From positions 1,736,001-1,800,000 of the forward strand of contig NZ_CP060716.1 of assembly GCF_014396385.1 (NCBI RefSeq): DNA of 64,000 nucleotides. Direction: 5' to 3'. Below the pieces are notes generated by a model. The model was not told where the DNA came from, made no database searches, and saw nothing but the letters and a program-made list of their open reading frames with translations. This DNA is from Leucobacter denitrificans (lineage in GTDB: Bacteria > Actinomycetota > Actinomycetes > Actinomycetales > Microbacteriaceae). The stretch's first letter is position 1. Each line of letters opens with the position of its first letter. A program made the translations under genes and the position numbers. Positions 13,344 to 28,807 of the stretch are shown here, piece by piece.

Positions 13344-14375
13344 TCAGTAGGTGAGTGCGACCTTTGTGAACTCCTTGTTGTCAAACTTCGTGTACGCCTC
13401 GACAGCATCATCTGCCGGGAGGACATGCGTGAGAACGCGGCCAGGCTTAAGTTCGCCACGGCGAATCGCCTCGAGGAGGAGTTCTCTGGTCTTGAAAGGG
13501 TTACCAATGTTGAACTTGAGGGTGAGTTCCTTTTCGAACATCACCCCGTTGTCGAGGGGGAAGTCGTTCTCGAAGTGAGCGCCAATAACTGAGATGATTC
13601 CCTGTGGACGCGCGAGGTGGAGCGCATCCTTGAGTGCGGGAATGCTCCCCGATGCCTCAATGACACAATCCGCTCCCACGCCATCGGTGAGCGTATCGAT
13701 ATAGTCGCGGGCTTCCTGCGGGGTGATCGCGGTCGCCCCTAGCTCTGTCGCAAGTTCGCGCCGAGCATCGACACCGTCGACGACGACGACTCTTGCCCCG
13801 CGGCTGAGAGCAACGATGACAGCCATGAGGCCTACCGGCCCAGCGCCCTGTACGACGAGAAGGTCTCCTTCTGTGACGCCAGCATTGTCAACTCCCGCGT
13901 ACCCGGTCGGAAGTATGTCCGCGAGGAAGAGGGCGTCTTCGGATGAAACCTCTTCTGGGAGCGCGAGCAGCGAGCGTGCGGCGTTTGGTACCCGGACGTA
14001 CTCGGCCTGACCGCCATCGAGTTTGGGGTACACGCCGGAGTAGCCGAACAGGCTTCGGGTGGTGCACTGGGTCCAGCGCTCTGCCGCACACTCCGAGCAG
14101 GTGCCACAGCTTGTCATGCTCGTATTCACTACGCGGTCGCCGACGGAGATCCCGTCGACTTCTGAGCCCACCTCAACGACTTCGCCAACGAATTCATGGC
14201 CCGGGATCATGCCGAACTCAAATCCCGGGGTGTGCCCGTGGAAAGGAAGGAGGTCTGCGCCGCATACTGCCGAGTGCGACACCTTCACAATCGCGTCAGT
14301 CGGAAACTGAACGGTCGGAGTATCGACCTCCTCGACAGAAATTTGTTCCGGGCCTGAGAGTATTACCGCTTTCAT
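13344..14375 (-). CDS. Zinc-dependent alcohol dehydrogenase (MDR family)
   Basis: 343 residues. Catalytic zinc ligands are visible as C38 (SAVCGAD) and H60/E61 (IPGHEF). The four-Cys structural zinc loop runs through SCGTCSECAAERWTQC, and the NAD(P) site is GAGPVGLMAVIV. It oxidises an alcohol or reduces an aldehyde in the cytosol. It overlaps the VOC gene by 4 bp (ATGA) and is divergent from the 4-pyridoxolactonase operon. The B6 locus lacks a canonical 4-pyridoxate dehydrogenase, so this enzyme is a candidate for oxidising the 5-hydroxymethyl of 4-pyridoxate, or the 4-hydroxymethyl of pyridoxine. That role is inference. Confidence 0.9.
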   Translation of the reverse strand: MKAVILSGPEQISVEEVDTPTVQFPTDAIVKVSHSAVCGADLLPFHGHTPGFEFGMIPGHEFVGEVVEVGSEVDGISVGDRVVNTSMTSCGTCSECAAERWTQCTTRSLFGYSGVYPKLDGGQAEYVRVPNAARSLLALPEEVSSEDALFLADILPTGYAGVDNAGVTEGDLLVVQGAGPVGLMAVIVALSRGARVVVVDGVDARRELATELGATAITPQEARDYIDTLTDGVGADCVIEASGSIPALKDALHLARPQGIISVIGAHFENDFPLDNGVMFEKELTLKFNIGNPFKTRELLLEAIRRGELKPGRVLTHVLPADDAVEAYTKFDNKEFTKVALTY

Positions 14376-14773
14376 GCGAGCTCCTCAATTTCGATTAGGT
14401 TGTGCTCTGGGTCTTCGCAGAAGAAGCGTGCGCCACCCCAAGGGGGACGGAACGTCTCTGAGCGCATGGTGACTCCCCGAGACTCCAGCTCGGCGCGGGC
14501 AGCGTCGCAGCTGTCAACTTCCAAGACCATGCAGGTCGACCGAGCGTCCCTGTTCGTGTCGAGGCTGAAAGTGAATTCGGGAATGTCGTCGCCGCGAGTT
14601 CCGTCTTCGGTAAGTGAAAGGCGCATGCCTTCCTTGACGAGAATGGCATACGGTGGATCTTCAAACATGGTTGTGAGTTCGAAATCGAATCCCTCCACAT
14701 AGAACTTGGCAAGAGCGGATACGTCTTTGGCGGTAATTATGAATCCCGCTCGTGTTGTGAGATATGCCGTCAT
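14372..14773 (-). CDS. VOC (glyoxalase/dioxygenase-like) family protein
   Basis: 133 residues from the second of two adjacent ATGs, which is better spaced from AAAGGAG; the first ATG is at 14776. Paired beta-alpha-beta-beta-beta modules: an N-terminal half with FIITAKDVSALAKFYVEGF, and a C-terminal half ending in PPWGGARFFCEDPEHNLIEIEE, where the late Glu and His positions resemble VOC metal ligands. Function in this superfamily is diverse (lyase, dioxygenase, resistance). Translational coupling to the zinc dehydrogenase and divergence from the lactonase suggest a role in B6 catabolism or detoxification of an intermediate. Not assignable further. Confidence 0.8.
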   Translation of the reverse strand: MTAYLTTRAGFIITAKDVSALAKFYVEGFDFELTTMFEDPPYAILVKEGMRLSLTEDGTRGDDIPEFTFSLDTNRDARSTCMVLEVDSCDAARAELESRGVTMRSETFRPPWGGARFFCEDPEHNLIEIEELA

Positions 14774-14801
14774 CATGGACTCCTTTGAACAGTGATGTCA
14801 C

Positions 14802-14840
14802 TCACATTATTGTGGGTTTTTATCAATACACGCAATGTGA
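14802..14840. promoter_or_regulatory. Inverted repeat TCACATT-N25-AATGTGA in the divergent B6 promoter region
   Basis: TCACATT (14802-14808) and AATGTGA (14834-14840) are exact reverse complements in the AT-rich gap between the VOC and lactonase genes. The sequence TCACATTA recurs upstream of the BMP transporter (22515-22522). ACTCACAT (14800-14807) recurs in reverse upstream of the oxygenase (16640-16647). It is a candidate binding site for the locus' IclR regulator. Confidence 0.45.
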
Positions 14841-14874
14841 ATATCAACATATGAATGAATTTTGAAAGATCAAC

Positions 14875-14904
14875 TTGACTCCACCTCATTAATTCTCATA
14901 TTCT
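14875..14904 (+). promoter_or_regulatory. Probable promoter of the lactonase-pyridoxal dehydrogenase operon
   Basis: TTGACT (14875-14880) and TATTCT (14899-14904) are separated by 18 bp in an AT-rich context, resembling a housekeeping sigma promoter. It lies about 75 bp upstream of the preferred ATG at 14980. Confidence 0.5.
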
Positions 14905-14979
14905 GATACCCAGATCACGATGAGTGATAGCGGGTCTTTATGGAAGATTCGCGTGCCGGGTCTCAATGAGGAGGAACGT

Positions 14980-15741
14980 ATGGCCGACCCCAAGGTATAT
15001 CTGCTTGACGGAGGAACGCTCGTCATCGATGCGTCACAAGTGCACTGGCATCACGATCTCGGTCAAGAGGTTCGTTTTCCTGTGTACAGCGTGCTTGTCG
15101 ACATCGACGGTGGGCCGCTGGTGATGTTCGACACTGGATTCGACCTGGACCACGTGAACAAGGTGCTTCCGTTCGAGAAGCCGCTGCAGACGCCTGAGCA
15201 GACCATCCCGGCACAGTTGGCGCTGTGTGGTTACAAGCCAGAAGACGTGGACATTGTCATCAACTCGCACTTCCATTTTGACCACGTAGGTGGAAATAAA
15301 TACCTGACCAACGCGCAGGTGCTGGTGCATAAGGACGAACTCCGGCACGCACTGGTTCCCGAACCGTTTGAGCGCCTCGGTTACTCCGATCTCTCGTTCG
15401 ACTTCGATAAGTCAAAGTACAAGTTCATCTCTGGTGAGTACGAGATCGCTCCGGGCGTGACGCTCATTGAGACCCCCGGGCATACTGTCGCGCACTACTC
15501 AATGCTCGTGGAACTCGAGAACTCGCCATCGATGCTCTTTGCGGGTGACGCAGCGTATACCCACAAGTCAATCGAGACTGAAGCGGTACAGGGCTTCCAC
15601 CTCGATCCGACGGGCTCGGTGGACTCGCTCCGTAAACTCGCATACGTGAGCCGCACCCGTGGGGCAGATATCTACCCGTCGCACGAGATGGAACCGTTCC
15701 TGACTTGGAAGAAGGCTCCCGAGTACTACGGCGGCAACTAG
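14980..15741 (+). CDS. 4-Pyridoxolactonase (metallo-beta-lactamase fold)
   Basis: 253 residues from ATG 14980, preceded by GAGGAGGAACGT. An upstream in-frame ATG at 14920 would add 20 residues that do not fit the family start, KVYLLDGG. It hydrolyses 4-pyridoxolactone to 4-pyridoxate (EC 3.1.1.27). The zinc-binding motif is HFHFDHVGG; a second His follows in ETPGHTVAHYS, then GDAAYTHKS and a late SHEME. VLPFEKP and GYSDLSF are, from memory, shared with the Mesorhizobium loti enzyme, which separates it from acyl-homoserine-lactone lactonases of the same fold. First gene of an operon with pyridoxal 4-dehydrogenase. Confidence 0.88.
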   Translation: MADPKVYLLDGGTLVIDASQVHWHHDLGQEVRFPVYSVLVDIDGGPLVMFDTGFDLDHVNKVLPFEKPLQTPEQTIPAQLALCGYKPEDVDIVINSHFHFDHVGGNKYLTNAQVLVHKDELRHALVPEPFERLGYSDLSFDFDKSKYKFISGEYEIAPGVTLIETPGHTVAHYSMLVELENSPSMLFAGDAAYTHKSIETEAVQGFHLDPTGSVDSLRKLAYVSRTRGADIYPSHEMEPFLTWKKAPEYYGGN

Positions 15742-15807
15742 ACCTCACAACATTGGCGCATTGGCGCCAAATACTCACGTACATCTGGCTAAGGAGCGAG
15801 AATACAC

Positions 15808-16542
15808 ATGGCAACACATGATAAGCGCGTCGCAATCGTAACGGGATCGGCGCAGGGCATCGGAGAGGCAATCGCGCGTCGGATTGCGGCGAACGACGTC
15901 ACTCTGGTTATTGCAGACGTGAATGCGGAAAAGGGGCAGGCGGTAGCCGACAGCCTTGGGGGACTGTTCGTTCAGACTGACGTCAGCAACCCGGAGCAGG
16001 TGCAGAACCTCGTCGATTCCACGGTGGAGAAGTACGGTCGCATCGACATCCTCGTGAATGATGCCGCAATCGTGCCGTTCATTGCTTGGGAAGACCTCAC
16101 GTTCGAGGAGTGGCGCCGCGTGCTGTCGGTGAATGTTGACGGACTGTTCTTGGTCACCAAGGCGGTCACAAAGGTGATGGCGGAAGCCGGATACGGTCGC
16201 GTCGTTAATATTGCGTCGAATACCTTTGTAGCCGGAACGCCGAACTGCAACCACTACGTGACCGGCAAGGGGGCGACCGTTGGTTTTACGCGCTCACTCG
16301 CGAGCGAAGTTGGTAAGGATGGGATCACTGTGAATGCGGTGGCGCCTGGACTCACTGAAAGTGAAGGCGTTAAGGCCGGACCCCACAACGATGGCTTCGG
16401 TTATGTTGTGCCGATGCAGGCATTTGACCGCAAGGGTCAGCCTGAGGACATTGCGCCAGCAGTGGCGTTCTTGACCACCGAAGAGGCGGGCTGGGTAACC
16501 GGCCAGCTGCTCGTCGTCGACGGCGGACACACTCGAAATTAA
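15808..16542 (+). CDS. Pyridoxal 4-dehydrogenase (SDR family)
   Basis: 244 residues. It oxidises pyridoxal (hemiacetal form) with NAD+ to 4-pyridoxolactone (EC 1.1.1.107). SDR motifs: TGSAQGIG near residues 12-19, NDAA in place of NNAG near 86, catalytic Ser in NIASNT, and an active-site YVTGKG where YxxxK has its Tyr and Lys. The block IVPFIAWEDL and the sequence NTFVAGTPN are, as I recall, close to the M. loti enzyme. It follows the lactonase by 66 bp, so consecutive steps are co-transcribed. A strong hairpin follows. A general 3-oxoacyl reductase is the alternative, but the context argues against it. Confidence 0.85.
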   Translation: MATHDKRVAIVTGSAQGIGEAIARRIAANDVTLVIADVNAEKGQAVADSLGGLFVQTDVSNPEQVQNLVDSTVEKYGRIDILVNDAAIVPFIAWEDLTFEEWRRVLSVNVDGLFLVTKAVTKVMAEAGYGRVVNIASNTFVAGTPNCNHYVTGKGATVGFTRSLASEVGKDGITVNAVAPGLTESEGVKAGPHNDGFGYVVPMQAFDRKGQPEDIAPAVAFLTTEEAGWVTGQLLVVDGGHTRN

Positions 16543-16547
16543 ACGAG

Positions 16548-16681: not shown

Positions 16682-17809
16682 ATGAAAGAAAAAAACGGAC
16701 TCAAAGCGGAAGTGGCAGGGGCCGGTTTTGCCGGGCTCGTCGCTGCGACCACGCTTGCTCAGCAGGGCTGGGATGTTACGCTGCACGAACGCGGCGAAGA
16801 AATGCGTCCACTCGGAGCAGGCATCGTGTTGTGGAACAACAGTCTCCAAGTACTCAAGGCAATCGATGCGTATGACACGCTGCTCCCGCACACCATGGTG
16901 CCGCCGTACTACGAGACGCGGATCCACAATGAATCGGTGTCGAAGGAAGACTTCGACGGACTTCCCTGGCGCACAATGACCCGTCGCGCACTGCACGAGG
17001 CGCTAGCAGATGCCGCTATCCAGTCGGGTGTAAAGATACTTGTTAACTCTGAGGTCGTTGCTGCCGACCCAGCAGGAAGTCTGACCCTCGCCTCGGGTGA
17101 GGTGCGCCACGCTGACCTCATCGTTGGAGCAGACGGGGTTACTTCGCAGGTACGTGACTCCATCGGTTTTGAGCAGGAGCGCACTCGTTCGAAGGATGGC
17201 GTTACACGCCTCATCGTTCCTCGCTGCAAGGAGGAGCTCGGCGGTGGCGATGAATGGGATAACGTCATCGACTTCTGGAACTTTGAGCCCCGCGTGCTGC
17301 GCGTACTCTACGTCCCCTGCAATGAGGACGAACTGTACATTGCGCTGATGGCCCCGATCGAAGACGAAGAAGGTTCAGCGATTCCGGTCAACTACGACGT
17401 GTGGGTAGAGAGCCACCCGTACCTCGCACCGGTCCTCCGCGAAGCAGCGAAGATCACCGAAGGCAGGTATGACGGTTACCAGACCAACGTACTGAAGAAC
17501 TGGTCGAACGGGCGGGTAGCGCTCGTGGGTGACTCCGCACATGCAATGTGCCCGGCGCTTGCACAGGGCGCTGGCACCGCAATGACGAATGCGTACACCA
17601 TGGCCATGGCCGTTTCTGCTCGTCCCGAGAATCTCCCCGAAACGCTCGTTGCATGGGAAGCAGAAGAACGCGGTATCACCGATCGTTGCCAGGCAAAGTC
17701 CGCATGGTACGCAGAGACCCGCAACATGTCCAAGGGCAACCAGTTCACACCAGAGGTCCTTGAGACCGCAGCATACGATCCGACGGAGAAGCACGTAAAC
17801 CATGTCTGA
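16682..17809 (+). CDS. 2-Methyl-3-hydroxypyridine-5-carboxylate (MHPC) oxygenase
   Basis: 375 residues, close to the known enzyme. This FAD monooxygenase hydroxylates and opens the pyridine ring of MHPC with NAD(P)H and O2 to give E-2-(acetamidomethylene)succinate (EC 1.14.13.242). FAD motifs are GAGFAG near residues 14-19 and GDSAHAMCPALAQGAG in the C-terminal third. SVSKEDFDGLPWRTMTR and RLIVPRCKEELGG match, from memory, diagnostic stretches of the M. loti enzyme. It is cytosolic and has its own AT-rich upstream region. The stop overlaps the DUF1185 start by 8 bp, so the two are translationally coupled. This ring-opening enzyme is the strongest marker of the B6 pathway here. Confidence 0.92.
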   Translation: MKEKNGLKAEVAGAGFAGLVAATTLAQQGWDVTLHERGEEMRPLGAGIVLWNNSLQVLKAIDAYDTLLPHTMVPPYYETRIHNESVSKEDFDGLPWRTMTRRALHEALADAAIQSGVKILVNSEVVAADPAGSLTLASGEVRHADLIVGADGVTSQVRDSIGFEQERTRSKDGVTRLIVPRCKEELGGGDEWDNVIDFWNFEPRVLRVLYVPCNEDELYIALMAPIEDEEGSAIPVNYDVWVESHPYLAPVLREAAKITEGRYDGYQTNVLKNWSNGRVALVGDSAHAMCPALAQGAGTAMTNAYTMAMAVSARPENLPETLVAWEAEERGITDRCQAKSAWYAETRNMSKGNQFTPEVLETAAYDPTEKHVNHV

Positions 17810-18401
17810 AAACTATTCACTTGATGACTACGAGATCCGCTCGTGGCACACGCAAACCGTTGAGGTCACAGAACTCGCCGGTCGCAAGCTCGATGACCCA
17901 CTCGTGAAGGCTGCAGTGGCTGTGGTCATTCGCAACCCATTCGCAAGTCAGCCTTTCCAAGAGGATCTCAGTGCGCTCACCGCACCAAGTGGTGTTCTCG
18001 CGCATGAGCTGGGCACTCGCGCGAAGGCATTGCTCGGAGGCCGGGAGGTTGAGGGGTACGGTAAGGGTGGTATTGCTGGAACTGCTGGGGAACAGGAGCA
18101 CGTCGTCGCATGTGTTACCACCATTTTTGGCAATGGTTTCCGTGACGCAATCGGGGGAGGAGCGGCGTGGATCTCTTCGTTCACAAAAGTAGCCTCGGCC
18201 GGAACCTCGATCGATATCCCTCTCGCGTTTAAGGATGAAGTCTTTGTTCGCGACTACTACGACGGCATCACCTTGCATATTGACGAAGGTCCGAAGCCTG
18301 ATGAGCTTGTCATCTGTGTCGCCGTCTCGAGCGGCCCGCGCGCCCAAGCCCGTGTCGGTGGAATCACCAAGGAAGAGGCGCTGGCAAAGCTGGCCAAGTA
18401 G
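17802..18401 (+). CDS. DUF1185 (AA_synth) family protein, copy 2, in the B6 operon
   Basis: 199 residues, starting at an ATG that overlaps the oxygenase stop by 8 bp. It has NPFASQPFQEDL near residue 45, EGYGKGGIAG, EQEHVV and FGNGFRD, blocks shared with the paralogue at 12300-12860. Soluble, no signal peptide. The family's reaction is unknown to me. Tight coupling between the ring-opening oxygenase and the HMPDC decarboxylase suggests a direct part in B6 catabolism, for example an auxiliary or chaperone for an unstable intermediate, or an enzyme for a missing step. That is inference from position only. Confidence 0.85.
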   Translation: MSENYSLDDYEIRSWHTQTVEVTELAGRKLDDPLVKAAVAVVIRNPFASQPFQEDLSALTAPSGVLAHELGTRAKALLGGREVEGYGKGGIAGTAGEQEHVVACVTTIFGNGFRDAIGGGAAWISSFTKVASAGTSIDIPLAFKDEVFVRDYYDGITLHIDEGPKPDELVICVAVSSGPRAQARVGGITKEEALAKLAK

Positions 18402-18447: not shown

Positions 18448-19191
18448 ATGCGTGAGCCGTTCAACCCATCGCCTGAAATTCGGGCGACACTGAATGACCT
18501 TGCTCGAGTCCACCGTATTCTCGAGATTGAGGGACACGGTGACATGTCGATGGGTCACATGTCCTACCGCGATCCTGAGGGACGTGGAATGTGGCTGAAG
18601 CGTGGCCACCTCGCACTTTCTGAGGTGCAGGCGGAGGACTTCCTGCTTGTCACCCTCGATGGAGAGGTGCTGCAGGGCGAGGGTTTCCGTCACTTGGAGT
18701 GGCCCCTGCACGCTGAGATTTTCAAGGCTCGGCCTGACGTCAACTTCGTTGGACACTCACACGCTCACTACGCGACAGTATTCGGGGCTGGTCAGAATGA
18801 ACTCGCGCCGGTTAACAACCACGGTGCGTGGTTCGCGGAGCATGGTGTGCCGCGCTTCGACGAAACCAGCCACATCATCACGACGGTGGATCTCGGTATC
18901 GCTGTGGCGCGCGACCTTGGCGCTGCTGAAGCAATTCTTCTCGCAAACCACGGAATCGCCTTCACAGGTGGCGACGTGCGTGAACTGCTGCTCTGTGGCA
19001 TCTTCCTGGAGTGGTCATCGAAGTTCCAGATCGACCTTGAGAGTTCGGGAGCGAAGTTCGCAATTCCTGATCACGCAGAGAGCATTGAGAAGCACGGGCG
19101 CATCTACCCCGAGCCGGCGAAAGAGAACTACTGGAAGTATTTCAACCGCCTGCTTGATATTTCCGAGGGCCGCGAGCCCCAGGCGATCTAA
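18448..19191 (+). CDS. HMPDC decarboxylase (class II aldolase fold)
   Basis: 247 residues. Class II aldolase/adducin-type domain with metal ligands in GHSHAHYATVF (H103, H105, H107) and a further His in ANHGIAFTG; the acidic residue of LEWPLHAEIF is at the usual catalytic position. In vitamin B6 pathway I this family supplies 3-hydroxy-2-methylpyridine-4,5-dicarboxylate 4-decarboxylase (EC 4.1.1.51), making the substrate of the MHPC oxygenase. The neighbouring oxygenase and FHMPC dehydrogenase support that choice over a sugar-phosphate aldolase. ATG follows CTAGGAG. Mn2+ or another divalent metal is expected from the family. Confidence 0.85.
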   Translation: MREPFNPSPEIRATLNDLARVHRILEIEGHGDMSMGHMSYRDPEGRGMWLKRGHLALSEVQAEDFLLVTLDGEVLQGEGFRHLEWPLHAEIFKARPDVNFVGHSHAHYATVFGAGQNELAPVNNHGAWFAEHGVPRFDETSHIITTVDLGIAVARDLGAAEAILLANHGIAFTGGDVRELLLCGIFLEWSSKFQIDLESSGAKFAIPDHAESIEKHGRIYPEPAKENYWKYFNRLLDISEGREPQAI

Positions 19192-19227
19192 CACATCGCG
19201 AACTAGCTAATTCGAAGGAGAATGCAC

Positions 19228-20171
19228 ATGTCAACACCACGCAACATTACGGTCCTGGGTTCAGGCATCATGGGCCCCGGCATCGCTGCGGTTTTCGCAC
19301 GCAGTGGCGCGGATGTCACCATCTACGACGTTGTTCAGGACGCACTTGATCGTGCTGCAGAGGGTGTCAAGGTCGCAGAAGGCGTTCTTGACAAACTCGA
19401 TGCAGCACGGGGTGACCGACAGGGCGAGCTCTCATTTACGACGAGCATCGAAGAAGCGCTCGCGAAAGCAGAGTACGTTCTCGAGGCTGTCCCAGAGCGA
19501 GAGGACCTCAAAAAGCAGGTTATTGCTCAGGTCGAGTCACTCGTAGGCCCTGAGGTCATCATTGCTTCGAACACCTCGGGGATCCCGATCACGAAGCTCG
19601 CTGAAGACATGAAGCACCCCGAGCGCTTTGTGGGCATGCACTGGTCGAACCCTCCTCACGTGATCCCCTCATCGAGGTGGTTCCGGGCGAGCAAACCAGC
19701 GATGCAACTCGTGATGCTGTCGTTGCGCTCGCCAACTCCTTCGGATACGAGGCTGTACTTGAGGGCGAGGTTCCTGGCTTTGTTGAGAACCGCATCCTGT
19801 ACGCGATTATGCGTGAAAGCCTCGCGCTCGTCGACGAAGGCATCATCTCGAAGGAAGACATGGACATTTGTGTGCGGTGGGGCATTGGCTTCAAGCTCGC
19901 CGTAGTCGGCCCGATGCGTCTTCTCGATATGGCTGGCCTCGACACCTACAACAATGTTGCGAGCTACCTCAATCGTGACCTCTCGAAGACGGACGGAGTT
20001 CCCCAAGTGATCACCGACAACATTGAAGCGCAGACCTTCGGCTTCAAGTCAGGTAAGGGCCTGTTCGAGTACGGTGAGGGCGATGTCGCGGCGAAGCGAG
20101 CGCAGATCGTGTCGCAACTCATCCAGGTGCGCAACGCAATGCCCAAGCCACTGAGCAGTGACCAGGTGTAA
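19228..20171 (+). pseudogene. FHMPC dehydrogenase (3-hydroxyacyl-CoA dehydrogenase family), apparent frameshift
   Basis: The first half (from ATG 19228 behind GAAGGAG) carries the NAD site VLGSGIMGPG and runs to GMHWSNPPHVIP. The second half continues in another frame as VVPGEQTSDATRD, then GFVENRILYAIMRE, to 20171. Adding one C to the CCCC run at 19665-19668 restores a continuous protein of about 314 residues reading HVIPLIEVVPGEQT. The restored protein matches, from memory, 5-formyl-3-hydroxy-2-methylpyridine-4-carboxylate 5-dehydrogenase of M. loti (EC 1.2.1.100), which gives HMPDC, the substrate of the upstream decarboxylase. As written, the first frame ends at 19905. Sequencing error is more likely than real loss, as the rest of the pathway is intact. 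Confidence 0.82.
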
Positions 20172-20180: not shown

Positions 20181-21050
20181 ATGACTGAAGCGAAAGTTTC
20201 TCAGCAGGTCGTTCGCACTGTCGATGTTGGCGGTGCGAACGGCCCGCAGCGGATAGTATACGCAGAGAGCGGCCACGGCGAGGACACGGTGTTCCTTTTT
20301 CATGGAGTTACCGCGAATCACCGGGTTTGGGCACCTATCCAAGCCGAGCTGTCCCGGCGTTTCCGGGTTATCGCGGTGGATCAGCGTGGCCACGGACGCA
20401 GCGATAAGCCTGCCGCGGGGTATGGCGCTGCCGACTACAGTGACGACGTTCGAGGTCTTGTTGCTCAACTGGGAGGGCCAGGCAGGAATGTCTTGGTCGG
20501 ACACTCGCTGGGTTCTCGGAACTCAATTGTGACTGCGGCCAGGTACCCGGAGATTATCGACGGCATTGTTGCCATTGACTTCAATCCCTTCATCGAGACT
20601 GAAGTGTTTGACACGCTCGCGGCGAGGGTCGGTGGTGGAGACCAGCGTTTTGCCACAACTGCTGAGGTCGAAACCTATCTCCAGCAGCGCTACAAGAAGA
20701 TGCCGAAAGATGCAGTCGAGCGTCGCGCGGAATATGGGTATGAGGAGCGCGACGGTGTGCTCGTACCGCTTGCTGACCCAGAAGCGATGAGGCAGACAGT
20801 TGAAGGGCTACGTGAAGACCTCACGGAGACTTACAAGCGCATTGCGGTTCCTGCGGTTGTGATTCGCGGTGCCGAGAGTGTGCTGGTGACTGAGCAGGCA
20901 TTTGAGCGTTCGCGAGAAGTGCGACCTGATCTCACATACGAGGTCGTTGAACACGCGGATCATTACGTACCAGAAGAACAACCAGAAGCTGTGGCACGCA
21001 TCGTCAGTGACTTTATTGATCGACTCGAACCACGTAAAGAAAAGGAATAA
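20181..21050 (+). CDS. E-2-(acetamidomethylene)succinate hydrolase (alpha/beta hydrolase)
   Basis: 289 residues. Alpha/beta hydrolase fold with oxyanion region FLFHGVTANHRVW, nucleophile S109 in GHSLGS, and a late His in VVEHADHYVPEEQP. In B6 pathway I an enzyme of this fold (EC 3.5.1.29) cleaves the ring-opened product into acetate, ammonia, CO2 and succinic semialdehyde. Assignment depends on the pathway context; alone it would be a generic hydrolase. It starts 9 bp after the FHMPC dehydrogenase and ends 2 bp before the YbhB-like gene, within the same operon. Confidence 0.8.
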   Translation: MTEAKVSQQVVRTVDVGGANGPQRIVYAESGHGEDTVFLFHGVTANHRVWAPIQAELSRRFRVIAVDQRGHGRSDKPAAGYGAADYSDDVRGLVAQLGGPGRNVLVGHSLGSRNSIVTAARYPEIIDGIVAIDFNPFIETEVFDTLAARVGGGDQRFATTAEVETYLQQRYKKMPKDAVERRAEYGYEERDGVLVPLADPEAMRQTVEGLREDLTETYKRIAVPAVVIRGAESVLVTEQAFERSREVRPDLTYEVVEHADHYVPEEQPEAVARIVSDFIDRLEPRKEKE

Positions 21051-21052
21051 CC

Positions 21053-21496
21053 ATGGGACTGAACATTCAAGATCTTGCCATTTCTAGCCCGGACATCGCG
21101 TCACTTGGTGCAATCGATGATGCGTTTGCTGCGGAGACAGGGAATCAAGTTCCGCGTTTGGAAATCAGCGGGGTACCCGCTGAGGCTGTCGAGCTAGCGG
21201 TCATTCTGCACGACCCAGACGCACCCCTTCCACAGGGTTTCACACACTGGACCGTTTACGGGATTGATCCACAGAGTGCAGATGTGACATCGGGACGCGT
21301 TGGGCCGAACGGCATTGGGGAGGCCTCTTACTCCGGACCTCAGCCGCCGCACGGTCACGGCCAGCACCACTACTACTTTTGGGTCTACGCATTGAGCCGT
21401 AAGGTTGAAGGGGAGCCAAGCCGCGAAGAGTTCCTTGCAAACTATGCAGACGCGATAGTAGAGCAGAATCGACTGGTAGGTACTTATCAGCGGTAA
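21053..21496 (+). CDS. YbhB/YbcL family Raf-kinase-inhibitor-like protein (PEBP fold)
   Basis: 147 residues, standard length. PEBP features: VELAVILHDPDAPLPQGFTHWTVYGID, with the Asp-Pro-Asp ligand-pocket motif, and GPQPPHGHGQHHYYFWVYAL, with the conserved Gly-x-Pro-Pro-His-Gly-x-x-His-x-Tyr region. No signal peptide, so cytosolic. Bacterial members have no firmly established reaction. It begins 2 bp after the succinate hydrolase stop and is the last gene of the catabolic run before the IclR regulator. A role in binding an anionic or ring intermediate is possible but unproven. Confidence 0.9.
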   Translation: MGLNIQDLAISSPDIASLGAIDDAFAAETGNQVPRLEISGVPAEAVELAVILHDPDAPLPQGFTHWTVYGIDPQSADVTSGRVGPNGIGEASYSGPQPPHGHGQHHYYFWVYALSRKVEGEPSREEFLANYADAIVEQNRLVGTYQR

Positions 21497-21561: not shown

Positions 21562-22326
21562 GTGCAAACAAGCCGGGCGAAAGGCGTCGATAGCGCGAGG
21601 CGGGTACTTCAGATCCTCTTGAGCTTCTCTGAATCCTCACCTGAAGTGACCGTTGAGAGCATTTCGACCCAATTCGGCATCTCGGTACCGAGCGCATATA
21701 GGTATATCTCGTTGCTTCGTGAGCTCTACCTCATCGAGGAAACGGGAAGGGGTGCGTATTCGCTGACTCCACAGATGTTCCGACTTGCATCTGTTGCCGA
21801 ATCGTCGATCGACATTGGAAATCTCGGAATGCCCGTCGTTAACCGACTTGTCGGGGAGACACACGAGACGGTGCTCATTCTGCGGAGGATCGGCGATTCG
21901 GCAGTGTGCGTTGCCTCATCGCAACCAGATAAGCAGGCGACGATCTCGTTCCTGCAGGGGCATCTCATGCCTCTGCACCGCGGTGCCGGGTCGAAGGTGT
22001 TACTTGCTGCGACACAAATTGAGGAACAGCGTAAGTACCTCGCGCATCTCGAGGAGCGACTTGGCCCAGACTGGGGGGAAGAGCTGAAGAGTGAGCTTTC
22101 GGCGATACGTAAGCAGCATTTTGCGATCTCCTCCGCTGAGGTCGATGAGGGCATTTATGCGGTTGCTGCGCCGATTGTCGTGGAGGGGCGCACCGTCGCT
22201 GCGCTATCGATTGCCGGACTGGAGTTCCGGCTATCGGAAGAGCGTCGGGGTGAGTTGCTGCAAAAGGTGAGAGAAGGCGCACGCGAAATCAGCGACATGA
22301 TGAGCATCCCGCAGGTCGTCGCGTAG
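21562..22326 (+). CDS. IclR-family transcriptional regulator
   Basis: 254 residues from GTG 21562. The N-terminal winged helix-turn-helix (about residues 10-70: RVLQILLSFSE, then SISTQFGISVPSAYRYISLLRE) is followed by an IclR effector domain with HRGAGSKVLLAA and GIYAVAAPIVVEGRTVAALSIAG. It is a cytosolic ligand-responsive repressor or activator. It lies between the catabolic genes and the BMP transporter, all in one direction, and is the only regulator in the B6 locus, so it probably controls it. Inverted repeats at 14802-14840 and 22518-22547 are candidate sites. M. loti uses a GntR-type regulator for this pathway, as I recall. Confidence 0.9.
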   Translation: MQTSRAKGVDSARRVLQILLSFSESSPEVTVESISTQFGISVPSAYRYISLLRELYLIEETGRGAYSLTPQMFRLASVAESSIDIGNLGMPVVNRLVGETHETVLILRRIGDSAVCVASSQPDKQATISFLQGHLMPLHRGAGSKVLLAATQIEEQRKYLAHLEERLGPDWGEELKSELSAIRKQHFAISSAEVDEGIYAVAAPIVVEGRTVAALSIAGLEFRLSEERRGELLQKVREGAREISDMMSIPQVVA

Positions 22327-22598: not shown

Positions 22599-23699
22599 GT
22601 GTTCTTTAATCATGGTAAAAAGCGGGCACTCCGCACCGGCTTGGTAGCCGCAACTGTCGTCGGCCTGATCCTTACAGCAGGATGCTCGGGTCGCGGTGAC
22701 ACTGGCGGTGGATCAGGCGATGGCGGCGGTGAAGAAGCAGCAGGTCAAACAGTCTCGCAGTTCGCAATCGTCACCCCTGAAAAGGAATCCGATTACGGTT
22801 GGAACCAGCAGGGTATCTGGGCTGCCCAAGCAGCAGCCGAGGAACTAGGAATCGACCTCGACGACAACTCGAACGTTGGGTACGACAATACCGAGACGAT
22901 TCTCACCCAGGTTGCTGAGGGCGGAAATGACCTCATCATTGCGCACGCGAGCGGCTTTAACACTGCAGGCCACCGAGTGGGAATGACCACAGGCGTGCCA
23001 ACACTCGTCGTCGACTTCGATAAGAACGAGCCCGGCAAGGTTGCCACGATCATTACCCAGGCACAGGAGGGTGCATATCTCGCGGGCGTCGCTGCAGCGA
23101 ACAAGACTGAGACGAACACGGTCGGAATAGTCGCCTCGGCTGAGGACCTCAACTGGTTCCTGATGTCCGGAGGCTTCGCGCAGGGCGTGTACAGCGTTGA
23201 TCCATCGATCAACGTCGTGATTGCCTACGTTGGTCCGGCCGGATACGGTGACTCGGCAGGTGGAACGAACGTGATGAATCAGGTCATCGCGGCGGGAGCC
23301 GATGTCATCATGGGTATGGGTGACGGAGCGACGATGGGTTACCTCCAGGCCATCGAGAGCGCCTCGACTGACTACCCCCTGTCGTACATCGCAACGATCG
23401 GTGACGTTACCGAGATCGTAGAAGATCCTGCACTTGTGCTCACGTCAGTGCTCTGGAACTTCAAGGATTCGTACGTGCAAGCGATCAAGGATGTTGAAGC
23501 TGGCACGTTCGGTACAGAGACCTATGAGCTCACTGTAGCCAACGGCGGACTGACGCTCCAAGAAACCGACAACCTCACCGGTGACATCGCCGCAGCTGTT
23601 GAGGCTGCCCAGGCGGGCATCGCTGACGGCAGCATCACCATTGAGCGCGCGACTGATAAGGACGCCGTTCAAGCAATCATCGACGCAAAGGGCAAGTAA
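22599..23699 (+). CDS. BMP-family ABC transporter substrate-binding lipoprotein
   Basis: 366 residues from GTG 22599 after AAAGAGGA. Signal peptide with lipobox LTAGC (Cys29), then a Gly-rich linker and a basic membrane protein (PnrA/Med-like) domain: SDYGWNQQGIWAAQAAAEEL, GVPTLVVDFDKNEPGKVATI, QEGAYLAGVAA, and GADVIMGMGDGATMGYLQAI. Characterised members bind nucleosides through stacking of the base. Here the gene heads a transporter operon inside a B6-degradation locus, so the ligand may be a pyridoxine-type vitamer; that is inference. The protein would be anchored to the outer face of the membrane. A 14-bp hairpin follows its stop. Confidence 0.92.
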   Translation: MFFNHGKKRALRTGLVAATVVGLILTAGCSGRGDTGGGSGDGGGEEAAGQTVSQFAIVTPEKESDYGWNQQGIWAAQAAAEELGIDLDDNSNVGYDNTETILTQVAEGGNDLIIAHASGFNTAGHRVGMTTGVPTLVVDFDKNEPGKVATIITQAQEGAYLAGVAAANKTETNTVGIVASAEDLNWFLMSGGFAQGVYSVDPSINVVIAYVGPAGYGDSAGGTNVMNQVIAAGADVIMGMGDGATMGYLQAIESASTDYPLSYIATIGDVTEIVEDPALVLTSVLWNFKDSYVQAIKDVEAGTFGTETYELTVANGGLTLQETDNLTGDIAAAVEAAQAGIADGSITIERATDKDAVQAIIDAKGK

Positions 23700-23746: not shown

Positions 23747-23783
23747 CCCGTCACCACTCAAGCCCCTATGAGAAAGGACAGCG

Positions 23784-25442
23784 ATGTCCAGCACGCACGC
23801 CTCACCTGCACTCGCTTCGGAAGTTGATCGCGACATCGTGATTCGACTCACCGATATCACCAAGCGTTTTCCCGGAATCGTGGCGAATGACGCCATATCG
23901 CTCGACGTGCGACGCGGCGAGGTCCACTGCCTCCTGGGTGAGAACGGTGCAGGAAAGTCGACGCTCATCAGCATCCTTGCCGGGCTGCAGCAGCCCGATG
24001 AGGGAAGCATTGAGATGAACGGTGTGCCGACGGTGCTGAGTTCTCCAGCGGTGTCAATTGCCCAGGGCATTGGTGTGGTGTACCAGCACTCCGCGCTCAT
24101 CCCGACACTCACTGTGCTCGAGAACCTTATGCTCAGTGACGAGAGCAATTTCTGGCTCGATAAAACCAGCGCAGCAGCGCGACTCGCCGAGTTGAGCGAG
24201 CTCCTCGGCGCTGAGATCGATCCGCACATGCTCGCCGGAGACTTGGGTCTCGGGCAGCAGCAACAAGTGGAGATTGCAAAGGCAATGTGGAAGGGCTCCG
24301 AGGTGCTCATCCTTGATGAGCCCACCTCGATGCTCACTCCTCAGGCGATCGACAGTCTCGTTGAGAGCGTGAACCGCCTCAAAGCAGAGGGACTCGCCGT
24401 CATTTTCATTTCTCACAAACTTCACGAAGCCTACGCGATCGGTGATGCGGTCACGATTCTCCGCGCGGGCTACGTGGCCGGACGCATCGCACCCGAAGAA
24501 ATGCACGCGATGACAGAAGAACAGGCGAAAGATCGCATCCTTGAGGCGATGTTTGGATCGAACCCCGAGACGATCTCAGCCGAACAGGCCGAGGCAGCGG
24601 GGGCAGCAGAAGTGGAGCGGCGTGGCAGCGTCGCAGCTGATGCTCAGACCGTGCTTGAAATTGCGGGCCTCACGACCACTTCTGAGTCGGGAGAGGTTGC
24701 GATTTCCGACGTCAGCCTCGCTATCCGCGCCGGTGAGATTCTCGGGATCGCAGGTATCGACGGCCACGGGCAGCGCCACCTCGCAGAAACGATCGCGGGC
24801 CAGCGGACGCCGGCTTCAGGCAGCGTGTCGCTCGATGGTACGGATGTCACGAAGTACAAGGTGAAGGCACGTCAGAATCTTGGCGTACGCTACGTCACCG
24901 ATGATCGACTGCACGAGGGAATTGTCGGAAATCTGAGCGTTGCGCTTAATCTCGTGCTCAAGAAAATCGGTGAATCACCGTTTTGGCGCCTGGGTCGCAT
25001 GGACCGCGATGCAGTGATGCGCGAGGCCGATGATCAGATTGCGGAGTACGAGATTCGGACCCCGTCGAAGCACACAAGAGCGGGGACGCTTTCGGGCGGC
25101 AACATTCAAAAGATTCTGCTCGCACGTGAACTCTCTCACGATCCGCGAGTAGTGATCTTCCACAAACCCACTTACGGTCTTGACCTCAAGACCGTGTATC
25201 GAGTGCGTGAAACGGTGCGTGACTTCGCACGCCAGGGCGGGGCAGTGCTTCTCATTTCGACCGACCTTGATGAGCTTGCGGAGCTATCAGACCGCGTTGC
25301 CGTCGTATCAAATGGACGGATCATCGGCGAGGTTGTCAACGATGGCGATCATGTGACCGAGCGGATCGGCGAAATGATGGTCGGCATGAAGACGACCGCT
25401 CACTCGAATTCTCCGGAAGATTCGGAGCAGGAACATGTCTAA
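23784..25442 (+). CDS. ABC transporter ATPase with two ABC domains (BMP/nucleoside-type)
   Basis: 552 residues, two fused nucleotide-binding domains as in sugar and nucleoside importers (RbsA, YufO). First domain: Walker A GENGAGKST, signature variant LGLGQQQQVEIAKA, Walker B VLILDEPTSMLT, and SHKLHEA. Second domain: degenerate P-loop GIDGHGQRH, usual in this family, LSGGNIQKILLAREL, and VIFHKPTYGLD. It energises the two permeases that follow, overlapping the first by 8 bp. Cytosolic face of the membrane. FHKPT at the second Walker B is a departure from the common AENPT/AEQPT. Confidence 0.93.
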   Translation: MSSTHASPALASEVDRDIVIRLTDITKRFPGIVANDAISLDVRRGEVHCLLGENGAGKSTLISILAGLQQPDEGSIEMNGVPTVLSSPAVSIAQGIGVVYQHSALIPTLTVLENLMLSDESNFWLDKTSAAARLAELSELLGAEIDPHMLAGDLGLGQQQQVEIAKAMWKGSEVLILDEPTSMLTPQAIDSLVESVNRLKAEGLAVIFISHKLHEAYAIGDAVTILRAGYVAGRIAPEEMHAMTEEQAKDRILEAMFGSNPETISAEQAEAAGAAEVERRGSVAADAQTVLEIAGLTTTSESGEVAISDVSLAIRAGEILGIAGIDGHGQRHLAETIAGQRTPASGSVSLDGTDVTKYKVKARQNLGVRYVTDDRLHEGIVGNLSVALNLVLKKIGESPFWRLGRMDRDAVMREADDQIAEYEIRTPSKHTRAGTLSGGNIQKILLARELSHDPRVVIFHKPTYGLDLKTVYRVRETVRDFARQGGAVLLISTDLDELAELSDRVAVVSNGRIIGEVVNDGDHVTERIGEMMVGMKTTAHSNSPEDSEQEHV

Positions 25443-26604
25443 GGAATCGCAATCAATGACGGCCTCTACCCCCACACTTGAAGACGCGGGACCAGAAACT
25501 CGCGCGATTGAAGCAACACGTAGACCACAGTCCACCAAGCTGTCCCAGGGACTCGAGGTTGTGATTCGTACGATCACGCCAGTCGTTCTCGCGCTCGTCG
25601 TCGGTGGGCTCATCATCTGGGTGATGGGTGTCAATCCGCTCGACTTCTATGGCGACATCTTCTACCTTGGAATTGCCGGAACAGGCTGGCAGAAGACCCT
25701 CACCGCAATGGCACCTCTGCTCATTATTGGGCTGGGACTGATCATCGCGTTTCGGGCACAACTCTGGAACCTTGGATACAACGGTGCGTATCTCATCGCA
25801 GCGGCGGTGGTGGCCGGCACAGCGCCAGACATTCTTGCCACGCTCCCGTTCGCTGTAGCAATCGTTCTCCTGTTTGCGATTGCAGTTGTTATTGGCGTCG
25901 TGCTCGGCTTCCTGCCCGCCTGGCTGAAAGCAAAGTACGGCACAAATGAAATCATTACCAGCTTGATGGTGTCATTCATTGCCATCAGTGGTGCGAACAT
26001 CCTGGTGAAGGGGCCCTTCCAAGATGTCGAAGTGACCGTCCCTCAGACACGAGTGCTCGACCTCAACCTGATGCTTCCATACATTCCTGGCACGCGGGTG
26101 CATGTGGGTTTTGTCATCGCAATCATCTTGGTGCTGGTGTTTCACTACATACTCACAAAGTCGTCGTTCGGGCTGAAGGTCGATATCTTGGGGGCGAGCC
26201 CGAAGGCAGCAACGCACGCCGGACTCGATGCAAGAAAGCTCATCATCACGGTATTTCTGCTCTCGAGCGGAATGATTGCGTTTGCCGGAGCGATCGACAT
26301 GCTTGGCTTGTGGGGCTACATGCGCACGAACTGGAACCCCGTATATGGTGACAAGGTTTTGCCGTTCGTGTTCCTCGCACGTCTGAACCCGCTTGGATCG
26401 ATTCCGCTCATCGCGTTCTATGCGATCCTCGCAACTGGCGGCACCATCGCTGCGCAGCAAGCTGGTCTGTCCGTCGATTTCCTTCTCATTATTGTTGCGC
26501 TCATCCTGTTCTTCATGACGGTTATCGAATACCTCGGCAACCGTAAAGATCTTGGAAAGAGCTACCTGCCTGCCGGTCTGTTCAAGTCCGCCAAGAAGCA
26601 CTAA
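25435..26604 (+). CDS. ABC transporter permease 1 (BMP/nucleoside-type)
   Basis: 389 residues with a charged N-terminus of about 40 residues and eight or more hydrophobic segments (VVLALVVGGLIIWVMGVN, MAPLLIIGLGLIIAFRAQLWNLG, and others). The stretch AQLWNLGYNGAYLIAA and NEIITSLMVSFIA are typical of BPD_transp_2 permeases of nucleoside importers. It overlaps the ATPase gene by 8 bp and precedes the second permease by 11 bp. Integral membrane protein forming half of the channel; ligand as for the operon. Confidence 0.92.
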   Translation: MSKESQSMTASTPTLEDAGPETRAIEATRRPQSTKLSQGLEVVIRTITPVVLALVVGGLIIWVMGVNPLDFYGDIFYLGIAGTGWQKTLTAMAPLLIIGLGLIIAFRAQLWNLGYNGAYLIAAAVVAGTAPDILATLPFAVAIVLLFAIAVVIGVVLGFLPAWLKAKYGTNEIITSLMVSFIAISGANILVKGPFQDVEVTVPQTRVLDLNLMLPYIPGTRVHVGFVIAIILVLVFHYILTKSSFGLKVDILGASPKAATHAGLDARKLIITVFLLSSGMIAFAGAIDMLGLWGYMRTNWNPVYGDKVLPFVFLARLNPLGSIPLIAFYAILATGGTIAAQQAGLSVDFLLIIVALILFFMTVIEYLGNRKDLGKSYLPAGLFKSAKKH

Positions 26605-26615
26605 GGACGAGCATC

Positions 26616-27551
26616 ATGATCGATTTTTTTAGCGAAACATTTCTTACCGCGTTTATCGTCGCCGTGCTGGCGAGCGCGATTCCACTGCTGCTCGCCTCAA
26701 TCGGTGAGACCGTTGGCGAGCAGTCCGGTGTGCTCAACATCGGTATGGAAGGTCTCATGCTCGTCGGTGGCTACTTCGGTTTCGTGGGAACCCTCGTGAG
26801 CGGAAGCTTCTGGGTTGGTTTTCTCAGTGGAGCGGCTGCAGGCATCGCACTGTCGATGGTCATGATGGTGCTCTGTGTTTGGTTAGGTCTGAATCAGATC
26901 GTCGTCGGTATCGGTATTGGACTAGCCGGTGCAGGTGTGAGCAGTGTGCTCTACGACTTCCAGTTCGCGGAGTCGAAGCCACGACTCGGGCTCGATACTC
27001 CTTGGACAATTCCTTTCCTCTCTGACCTTCCCGTCGTCGGGAAGGGCCTTTTTGCGCAGCCCGGAATGTTCTATGTCTCGCTCATAATCTTGGTGCTGAC
27101 ATCGATCTGGCTGTACAAGACGACACCAGGATTGCGCCTTCGTTCAGCTGGTCAGAAACCAGCTTCGCTGGATGCCGCCGGCGGCAGCGTCATGCGCACT
27201 CGATCACTTGCGGTGCTCTTTGGTGGAGCTATGTCAGGACTGGGTGGTGCATACCTCGCCCTAATCTCCGCGGGCACCTTCACTCCGGGCATGACGAACG
27301 GCGTGGGCTTCCTTGCGATCGTTGTCGCAATGCTCGCCCGTGGACGCTTCACCTGGGTACTGCTGATCTCGATCGTCTACGGTCTCTTCGTCGCTATGGG
27401 CACGGTACTTCAGCTCACCACTCTGAACATTCCAAATGACGTCGTTCACATGATGCCGTTTGTGGCCGTGATGATTGTGCTGACGTTCTTTGCTCGACGA
27501 TCCGCGCTTCCTCCTGCGCTTGCGACTGCGTATGTGCGAGGTGCACGGTGA
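26616..27551 (+). CDS. ABC transporter permease 2 (BMP/nucleoside-type)
   Basis: 311 residues, an integral membrane BPD_transp_2 permease. Diagnostic segments: ASIGETVGEQSGVLNIGMEGLMLVG, LNQIVVGIGIGLAGAGVSSVLY, and a late GGAYLALISAGTFTPGMTNGVGFLAIVVAMLARG. It completes the transporter with the larger upstream permease. The last gene before the aminotransferase; the 92-bp gap after it contains a 10-bp perfect inverted repeat. Confidence 0.92.
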   Translation: MIDFFSETFLTAFIVAVLASAIPLLLASIGETVGEQSGVLNIGMEGLMLVGGYFGFVGTLVSGSFWVGFLSGAAAGIALSMVMMVLCVWLGLNQIVVGIGIGLAGAGVSSVLYDFQFAESKPRLGLDTPWTIPFLSDLPVVGKGLFAQPGMFYVSLIILVLTSIWLYKTTPGLRLRSAGQKPASLDAAGGSVMRTRSLAVLFGGAMSGLGGAYLALISAGTFTPGMTNGVGFLAIVVAMLARGRFTWVLLISIVYGLFVAMGTVLQLTTLNIPNDVVHMMPFVAVMIVLTFFARRSALPPALATAYVRGAR

Positions 27552-27594
27552 ATCCAACTCCTATGGTTCATACGCTCCGCGGAATTGAGCCCGA

Positions 27595-27629
27595 TTGAGT
27601 TGTTCCAGCCTCGGCCAATAACAACTCAA
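27595..27629 (+). promoter_or_regulatory. Perfect 10-bp inverted repeat upstream of the aminotransferase
   Basis: TTGAGTTGTT (27595-27604) and AACAACTCAA (27620-27629) are exact reverse complements with 15 bases between them, ending 14 bp before the ATG and touching the AAGGA ribosome-binding region. It could be an operator or an RNA stem limiting translation. Confidence 0.5.
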
Positions 27630-27643
27630 CGTAAGGATGCATC

Positions 27644-28807
27644 ATGAATCACAGTACTGAAGTATTTACACTGTCGGCCGGACCAACGATGGCCACACAC
27701 CGAACACTCGCGGCCCTCGGGCAACCGATCATGTACCACTACGATCCGGTGTTCCTAGAAACGTTCGGGCGCACGCAACGCAAGGCTGCAGAAGTGTTCA
27801 AGACGAAGAACGACATGCTCCTCATGCAGGGTGAGGCTATCGTTGCGCTTGAGGGTGCTGCGCGGTCACTTACGAAGCCCGGCATGAAGGTGCTCAACCT
27901 AGTGCAGGGTGTATTCGGCAAAGGCATGGGGTACTGGCTGGAAAGCTTCGGCGCCGAGCTCCATGAAATCGAAGTAGCGTACAACGATGCTGTTTCTCCC
28001 GAAGCCGTTGAGAAGTATCTGCAGGAAAACCCTGGCATCGGTCTGATCACGATGGTCCATTCCGAGACACCCTCGGGTACTCTTACTGATTGCGCGGCGA
28101 TCGGCCCGATCGCGAAGCGTTACGGCGCGCTCACGCTTGTCGACGCGGTTTCGTCGATCGGTGGTCTCGAGTTCGAGACCGATGAGTGGCAGCTTGACAT
28201 TGTTGTCACCGGCGCGCAGAAGTGCCTCGCGGGCCCTCCCGGGATCGGTATGGTCTCGGTGAGCCCTGCTGCATGGGAACAGATTGAGAGCAACCCCAAC
28301 TCCCCACGTGCATCGTACGTGTCATTGCTTGACTGGAAGGAGAAGTGGCTTGAGGGTGGCGCCTTCCCATTCACGCCGTCGGTCTCAGACGTGCATGGCC
28401 TCGAATCAGTGCTTGACCAGGTGCTCGAAGAGGGGCTCGACAACGCAATTGTGCGCCACACGAATGCCGCATCGGCTACTCGTGCAGGTGCCCAAGCCAT
28501 GGGCCTTGAGCTGTGGGCTGCGAGTGAATCGATCGCTGCAAATTGCGTGACTTCGGTACGCGTGCCGGGCGATCTGGAACACCTGGATATTCGTGCCCAC
28601 GTTCGCGCGAAGTACGGTGTCATGCTCTCGAGCGGCCAGGGCGCGGGCAACCTCATGCGCCTCGCGCATATGGGGCCGAGCGCAAATGCTATGTACCCGA
28701 TCGTGGGACTCACCGCACTCGGGCAAGGTCTCCGCGACCTAGGTGCCCAGGTCGATCTTGGTGCAGGAATTGAAGCAGCCATGAGCGTCATTGCTCAGAA
28801 CAACTAG
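27644..28807 (+). CDS. Pyridoxamine-pyruvate aminotransferase (class V fold)
   Basis: 387 residues. It transfers the amino group of pyridoxamine to pyruvate, giving pyridoxal and alanine (EC 2.6.1.30), and feeds pyridoxal 4-dehydrogenase. It belongs to the alanine-glyoxylate aminotransferase group. The substrate-anchoring Lys is K193 in TGAQKCLAGPPG. PFPFTPSVSD and LWAASESIA recall the M. loti enzyme, which works without bound PLP. The N-terminal block is LSAGPT. Serine/alanine-glyoxylate aminotransferase is the alternative, but the B6 locus makes PPAT preferable. It follows the BMP transporter in the same direction and ends at a strong terminator. Confidence 0.86.
   Translation: MNHSTEVFTLSAGPTMATHRTLAALGQPIMYHYDPVFLETFGRTQRKAAEVFKTKNDMLLMQGEAIVALEGAARSLTKPGMKVLNLVQGVFGKGMGYWLESFGAELHEIEVAYNDAVSPEAVEKYLQENPGIGLITMVHSETPSGTLTDCAAIGPIAKRYGALTLVDAVSSIGGLEFETDEWQLDIVVTGAQKCLAGPPGIGMVSVSPAAWEQIESNPNSPRASYVSLLDWKEKWLEGGAFPFTPSVSDVHGLESVLDQVLEEGLDNAIVRHTNAASATRAGAQAMGLELWAASESIAANCVTSVRVPGDLEHLDIRAHVRAKYGVMLSSGQGAGNLMRLAHMGPSANAMYPIVGLTALGQGLRDLGAQVDLGAGIEAAMSVIAQNN

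Follow-up and report, generated by a model that had tools for sequence, protein, structure and literature searches.

A predicted vitamin B6 import-and-catabolism cluster with a variant upper half in Leucobacter denitrificans

We report that a 64,000-nucleotide stretch of the Leucobacter denitrificans genome (contig NZ_CP060716.1, positions 1,736,001 to 1,800,000; hereafter the window) very probably carries a cluster for the import and catabolism of vitamin B6, similar in kind to pathway I of Mesorhizobium; the genome itself is Microbacteriaceae-like. To our knowledge, B6 catabolism has been described gene by gene mainly in one organism, Mesorhizobium loti. The locus is genuine: a B6 catabolic cluster whose kind is known but whose upper half is a variant. 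It spans 12300-31747, from an AA_synth gene at 12300 to an NMT1-type ATP-binding cassette (ABC) transporter ending at 31747, and is wider than the 13344-28807 given in a first-pass annotation made from the DNA letters; the seven enzyme genes named there lie where it placed them (Table 1). Evidence for the B6 reading includes large gaps in bit score for the transaminase, lactonase, oxygenase and hydrolase, and scores above curated NCBI cut-offs for the lactonase, the pyridoxal dehydrogenase and three transporter subunits.

When the best match among solved structures is set against the best unrelated solved protein, five of the seven enzymes match solved M. loti proteins best by a clear margin. 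The identities first proposed hold for these five and are less secure for the 5-formyl-3-hydroxy-2-methylpyridine-4-carboxylate (FHMPC) dehydrogenase, whose frame is broken, and for the 3-hydroxy-2-methylpyridine-4,5-dicarboxylate (HMPDC) decarboxylase, which rests on gene position. Alignment with the M. loti enzymes, the check proposed for the assignments, also showed most of the residues checked in the oxygenase and the amidohydrolase to be kept. The 2-methyl-3-hydroxypyridine-5-carboxylate (MHPC) oxygenase is 60.8% identical (219/360) to 3ALJ, and five of the six positions that we take to form its active site are the same; residue numbers used for enzymes other than the amidohydrolase are likewise presumed. 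The amidohydrolase, 49.2% identical (124/252) to 3KXP, keeps ten of eleven residues (Ser106, Leu107, Asp130, Arg146, Arg167, Tyr168, Arg179, His258, Tyr259 and Glu262), the eleventh, Ile41, being Val. All of these except Asp130 are named in passages of PMC3538738, where three arginines and two tyrosines are assigned to substrate binding. The short-chain dehydrogenase/reductase (SDR) assigned as pyridoxal 4-dehydrogenase shares 53.2% identity (126/237) with 3NDR, with a smaller score margin than the other four enzymes. Pyridoxamine-pyruvate transaminase (PPAT) is more divergent, at 44.6% identity (170/381) to 2Z9U: what we take to be the substrate-side arginine of M. loti PPAT aligns with glutamine in all eight genomes examined, and the other such arginine is histidine in one copy from genome G368. 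The amino acceptor of this divergent PPAT may differ from that of the M. loti enzyme.

Sequence comparison supports most steps of a route in which the transaminase would convert pyridoxamine to pyridoxal, the SDR pyridoxal to 4-pyridoxolactone, and the lactonase 4-pyridoxolactone to 4-pyridoxate. An enzyme of the FHMPC dehydrogenase family would then oxidize C5 towards the 4,5-dicarboxylate, the aldolase-family protein would presumably decarboxylate HMPDC, the flavin oxygenase would open the ring of MHPC, and the amidohydrolase would hydrolyze 2-(acetamidomethylene)succinate to succinic semialdehyde. The products of this last reaction are succinic semialdehyde, acetate, ammonia and CO2. The first-pass annotation was right to recognize M. 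loti-type B6 catabolism and went too far in calling it near-complete: a single route leading from pyridoxal or pyridoxamine all the way to succinic semialdehyde is not borne out, as the operon holds no enzyme of known type for converting 4-pyridoxate to FHMPC, one gene has a broken frame and one assignment depends on gene position. Continuity fails because neither the flavin 4-pyridoxate dehydrogenase nor pyridoxine 4-oxidase was found.

The same annotation held that such a locus in a Microbacteriaceae-like genome appears little described, which understates both their spread and their coverage by NCBI models, several of which fit parts of the cluster. The MHPC oxygenase is present in 26 of 398 sampled genomes of the family, taken by inference to be Microbacteriaceae (17 of 85 genera, host included), and 18 of these 26 also hold a PPAT relative at E<=1e-60. 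It was found in none of the nine other same-genus genomes listed, and at E<=1e-60 samples of the phylum (396 genomes) and the order (396) yielded only the host and one relative at 41% identity. The closest named MHPC oxygenases are from Leucobacter, and a further named one is from Ruicaihuangia caeni; the two genera belong to Microbacteriaceae. A search of open-licence literature, which leaves out most subscription journals, gave no title or opening of an abstract that describes the actinobacterial cluster. A core order of oxygenase, AA_synth, aldolase, FHMPC dehydrogenase, hydrolase and PEBP genes on one strand is kept in 22 of the 25 other loci of the family; of the three exceptions, L093 and L105 are truncated where their contigs end and L109 has no PEBP match. 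Mesorhizobium loci hold the same genes, plus a GMC dehydrogenase gene between those for the aldolase and FHMPC dehydrogenase. G+C content is 0.545-0.585 in ten 2-kb steps over 12001-32000 and 0.579-0.663 in the other 22 steps, and at third codon positions it is 0.55-0.71 for 20 genes of the cluster as against 0.67-0.80 for seven other window genes, with slight overlap in both comparisons. Since G+C is lower here and the spread is patchy, gain of the cluster by transfer would fit. Compared with locus L094, the ratio of nonsynonymous to synonymous change (dN/dS) is 0.05-0.14 in 15 of the 20 genes, rough values because dS exceeds 1; synonymous change in the remaining five is saturated.

Several observations weigh against the B6 reading or parts of it. 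Tyr54, the sixth oxygenase position, is replaced by Val. PPAT scores 423 against NF046070, below the cut-off of 600, and permease 1 falls short of NF047928, leaving three of the four subunits of the NCBIfam putative B6 ABC transporter, and not all four, over their curated cut-offs. The FHMPC dehydrogenase is encoded in two frames, an N half from 19222 and a C half to 20171 with a junction near 19655-19680, and the halves reach 171 and 187 bits against NF042925, both below its cut-off of 500. The aldolase-family protein scores 70 bits against Mlr6791 and 67 against another aldolase, a 3-bit lead, and a profile of ten family sequences ranks Mlr6791 only fifth. The host genome gives no match at E<=1e-20 to the GMC flavin 4-pyridoxate dehydrogenase. 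Pyridoxine 4-oxidase is absent from the locus; no query of its own was run, and the related 4-pyridoxate dehydrogenase query, which does detect pyridoxine 4-oxidase in other genomes, was blank in the host, whose own two GMC proteins are very remote. As neither bit scores nor profile single out Mlr6791, assigning the HMPDC decarboxylase by sequence alone was dropped; judged by gene position, the aldolase-family protein probably does decarboxylate HMPDC.

Could the cluster be decaying or inactive in this strain owing to the frameshift? The two frames stand within a single-contig assembly, which speaks for it, but both halves show a dN/dS of 0.08-0.10 against L094 (rough, with dS above 1), like neighboring genes, and the other listed cluster genes are single open frames; we regard decay as rather unlikely. 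Each half has 4OM8 as its best match (138 and 145 bits), and the gene is uninterrupted in 32 aligned loci of both phyla. Outside that alignment stand L006 and L093, which gave no match (L093 is cut by a contig end), and L007, in which both halves match and the mechanical gene caller picked another frame. The window changes frame inside a GMHWSNPPHxIPxIE stretch whose His and Glu are kept in all 32 aligned sequences. Because the dN/dS of both halves resembles that of their neighbors, the break would be a recent mutation or a sequencing error, and with the frame broken this strain may or may not run the route. A different doubt concerns the substrate, as Mesorhizobium and other taxa carry distant relatives of the MHPC oxygenase (33-47% identity) in other contexts. 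That the cluster serves another substituted pyridine is nonetheless very improbable: lactonase, pyridoxal dehydrogenase and pyridoxamine transaminase jointly indicate B6, and in a tree the window oxygenase falls inside the clade of the solved M. loti enzyme (100/100).

The two missing flavin enzymes can be followed across related loci. Nine of ten alphaproteobacterial loci (all but L006) carry one GMC gene between the aldolase and FHMPC dehydrogenase genes and a second upstream; from position and gene numbers, we take the inner one to be 4-pyridoxate dehydrogenase and the upstream one pyridoxine 4-oxidase. The solved pyridoxine 4-oxidase 4HA6 groups with the upstream proteins in a tree. Many loci of the family have a single GMC gene adjoining the pyridoxal dehydrogenase gene; its product in L099 scores 532 bits against 4HA6 and 244 against the best other enzyme, and for 18 genomes the product of this gene falls in the tree with pyridoxine 4-oxidase (100/98), with G368 a nineteenth by its position beside the lactonase only. 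We considered this family-locus gene as a 4-pyridoxate dehydrogenase and rejected it, since it groups with the solved pyridoxine 4-oxidase. None of the family proteins in the tree, whose backbone is unresolved, is placed among the nine 4-pyridoxate dehydrogenases (98/100). Six other GMC proteins sit on long branches in unsure places, one of them, from G191, 43-44% identical to the query; 12 further places with matches, besides G368, are outside the tree. No operon read in the family contains the flavin 4-pyridoxate dehydrogenase.

In the window, the lactonase is preceded by a zinc alcohol dehydrogenase and a VOC protein on the opposite strand. The zinc enzyme occurs at E<=1e-60 in five of the 26 oxygenase genomes (60-73% identity besides the host), which form a single clade of the oxygenase tree (97/93). 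Pyridoxine 4-oxidase was not found in any of the five: G152, G206 and the host gave no GMC match at E<=1e-20, and G047 and G012 have GMC proteins that lie outside its group (G206 is only 77% and G012 only 82% complete). In the remaining 21 genomes, pyridoxine 4-oxidase is present in 19 (18 by tree, one by position), G188 has neither enzyme, and the fragmented G177 has one GMC match that was not placed in the tree. The zinc enzyme may therefore take over the role of the missing flavin oxidase and turn pyridoxine into pyridoxal, a possibility we hold at somewhat less than an even chance; the complementary distribution is one evolutionary event and so weaker than its counts. The VOC gene lies beside the zinc dehydrogenase gene in all five genomes. 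In the window, L094 and L095 the pair adjoins the lactonase end, and in G206 and G012 it follows the transaminase gene. Persistence of this linkage despite the moved position favors a role in the pathway.

Because the flavin dehydrogenase is missing from the family operons, we propose that FHMPC dehydrogenase performs both oxidations of the 5-hydroxymethyl group, a reading whose chances we put slightly short of even. It is itself the gene common to the loci that is a candidate for this step, and it belongs to the 3-hydroxyacyl-CoA dehydrogenase family, members of which oxidize alcohols. The M. loti enzyme is reported to act as an NAD-dependent dismutase, reducing FHMPC to 4-pyridoxate as well, which puts the reverse oxidation within chemical reach. 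The composition of locus L112 in G188 (4976-13378) fits this double role: its contents are limited to the core operon, the gene of an IclR regulator and an NMT1-type transporter, as if starting from 4-pyridoxate, and the genome gives no lactonase match at E<=1e-40 and no GMC match at E<=1e-20. L112 is a possible 4-pyridoxate specialist. Two alternatives seem less probable. An unrecognized, unlinked dehydrogenase might act elsewhere in each genome; several genomes do hold other GMC proteins, including the G191 protein, encoded about 30 kb from the oxygenase gene, and both their unsure places in the tree and the 12 matched places outside it leave room for this. The window genome, G152, G188 and G206 (the last only 77% complete) lack any GMC match at E<=1e-20, however, and the remoteness of the host's two GMC proteins also counts against it, making it rather unlikely. 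Somewhat less likely again is that the zinc alcohol dehydrogenase, and not FHMPC dehydrogenase, is the missing enzyme. Its linkage to the cluster despite a shifting position, and the unmatched GMC enzyme in the host, would agree with this, but 21 of the 26 genomes gave no match to it at E<=1e-60 and their operons, where read, also lack a 4-pyridoxate-type GMC gene; its distribution complements pyridoxine 4-oxidase instead.

Neither PdxS (PF01680) nor PdxJ (PF03740) was matched in the host genome (2,404,302 bases in one contig, 98.5% complete); each is the key protein of one of the two de novo routes known for pyridoxal 5'-phosphate. On this basis the host is predicted to be a B6 auxotroph that carries B6 catabolism. 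PdxS is missing from seven of the 26 oxygenase genomes (five of the 23 that are at least 90% complete) and PdxJ from all 26, the control query matching E. coli and three others.

Two ABC transporters, one with a BMP-type and one with an NMT1-type binding protein, are likely to import B6 vitamers or 4-pyridoxate. The NMT1-type binding protein is 56-57% identical to a counterpart that four Mesorhizobium loci (L007-L010) encode downstream of FHMPC dehydrogenase. AA_synth accompanies the oxygenase in 24 of 25 other family loci and PEBP in 22 of 25, and both do so in all ten alphaproteobacterial loci; the predicted AA_synth structure has a mean predicted local distance difference test score (pLDDT) of 87.5. 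Locus L006 (5556-12290) holds a minimal set of amidohydrolase, ABC transporter, MHPC oxygenase, AA_synth and PEBP, with aldolase and FHMPC dehydrogenase unmatched. That it has both side proteins without these two enzymes suggests that AA_synth and PEBP belong to the ring-opening and hydrolysis end. The second AA_synth gene adjoins the zinc dehydrogenase gene in L094 too, and the small lipoprotein-like protein belongs to cluster c11, found in 15 loci including the window, with a similar cluster, c35, in two. An M20-peptidase-family gene recurs at ten family loci (e.g., L100 10588-11724) and an amidohydrolase (PF04909) gene at six (e.g., L099 4978-5697), one member of each having been scanned. 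Outside the cluster, at 39533-46794, a protein kinase gene (39533-40729) is directly followed by a 2030-residue open frame with bacterial Ig domains.

Table 1. Features of the predicted B6 cluster, with window positions; paired bit scores give the best solved-structure match and the best unrelated solved protein
Feature	Position	Strand	Evidence
Second AA_synth (PF06684) paralogue	12300..12860	+	Pfam 196 bits; L094 78%
Small lipoprotein-like protein	12935..13333	+	"Lipoprotein" read from N-terminus; no Pfam match
Zinc medium-chain alcohol dehydrogenase, candidate pyridoxine 4-dehydrogenase	13344..14375	-	Pfam ADH_N + ADH_zinc_N
VOC (glyoxalase-type) protein, overlaps zinc alcohol dehydrogenase gene	14372..14776	-	Pfam 49 bits
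4-Pyridoxolactonase	14980..15741	+	3AJ3 272 bits vs 120; NCBIfam NF047925 404, cut-off 325
Pyridoxal 4-dehydrogenase, SDR type	15808..16542	+	3NDR 256 vs 188 bits; NF047923 382, cut-off 325
MHPC oxygenase	16682..17809	+	3ALJ 478 bits vs 83
AA_synth (PF06684) protein beside MHPC oxygenase	17802..18401	+	Pfam 180 bits
Class II aldolase-family protein, putative HMPDC decarboxylase by position	18448..19191	+	Pfam + gene position
FHMPC 5-dehydrogenase, split in two frames	19222..20171	+	4OM8 best for both pieces; NF042925 best family
2-(Acetamidomethylene)succinate hydrolase	20181..21050	+	3KXP 254 vs 67 bits
PEBP (YbhB/YbcL-like) protein	21053..21496	+	TIGR00481 70, cut-off 57.75
IclR-type regulator	21562..22326	+	Pfam IclR_C
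Putative B6 ABC transporter substrate-binding protein (Bmp family)	22599..23699	+	NF047927 422, cut-off 400
Putative B6 ABC transporter ATP-binding protein	23784..25442	+	NF047930 749, cut-off 670
Putative B6 ABC transporter permease 2	25435..26604	+	NF047929 441, cut-off 400
Putative B6 ABC transporter permease 1	26616..27551	+	NF047928 365, below cut-off 465
PPAT, divergent	27644..28807	+	2Z9U 356 vs 151 bits
NMT1/THI5-type substrate-binding protein	29035..30075	-	Pfam NMT1 141 bits
ABC permease, NMT1-type transporter	30117..30953	-	Pfam + locus comparison
ABC ATP-binding protein, NMT1-type transporter	30950..31747	-	Locus comparison

Put at its boldest, the host would be a B6 auxotroph living partly on B6 through a shortened and rewired pathway, with a four-electron oxidation by FHMPC dehydrogenase and a zinc alcohol dehydrogenase displacing pyridoxine 4-oxidase in one lineage; this combined picture is doubtful. 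If true, the flavin dehydrogenase would be dispensable across Microbacteriaceae, an NAD-dependent enzyme resembling 3-hydroxyacyl-CoA dehydrogenases would fully oxidize 4-pyridoxate, and the G188 locus would be that of a dedicated 4-pyridoxate eater. 4-Pyridoxate is the form in which people excrete B6, and the loci bear on the environmental removal of both compounds. A version of the pathway from another phylum, with two enzymes not found, offers a clean test of which enzyme oxidizes 4-pyridoxate without the flavoprotein. Conservation of AA_synth and PEBP in both phyla raises the question of their role, and a B6 auxotroph that destroys B6 that of how its own cofactor is protected.

The kind of pathway is already known, and NCBI models, including those for a putative B6 ABC transporter (NF047927-NF047930), cover several parts of it. 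What is new is the suggestion that FHMPC dehydrogenase performs both oxidations, the zinc alcohol dehydrogenase with its VOC protein as a candidate replacement for pyridoxine 4-oxidase, and the predicted auxotroph with B6 catabolism. The window shares with pathway I of M. loti MAFF303099 homologues of seven of its enzymes, and with Mesorhizobium loci the AA_synth and PEBP side genes and both the BMP-type and NMT1-type ABC transporters. It differs in that no flavin 4-pyridoxate dehydrogenase or pyridoxine 4-oxidase was found, in a diverged aldolase-family decarboxylase, in gene order, and in the added zinc alcohol dehydrogenase and VOC protein; its regulator is of the IclR type, whereas the one Mesorhizobium regulator scanned is of the GntR/FCD type. 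Family loci of the pyridoxine 4-oxidase type (L099, L100) have the core operon, lactonase, pyridoxal dehydrogenase and BMP-type binding protein in common with the window, but carry a pyridoxine 4-oxidase orthologue where the window clade has the zinc alcohol dehydrogenase and VOC protein instead. B6 degradation enzymes of this family are reportedly known biochemically from Microbacterium (Aureobacterium) luteolum, whose pyridoxal 4-dehydrogenase is said to be an aldo-keto reductase, whereas that of the window is of the SDR type.

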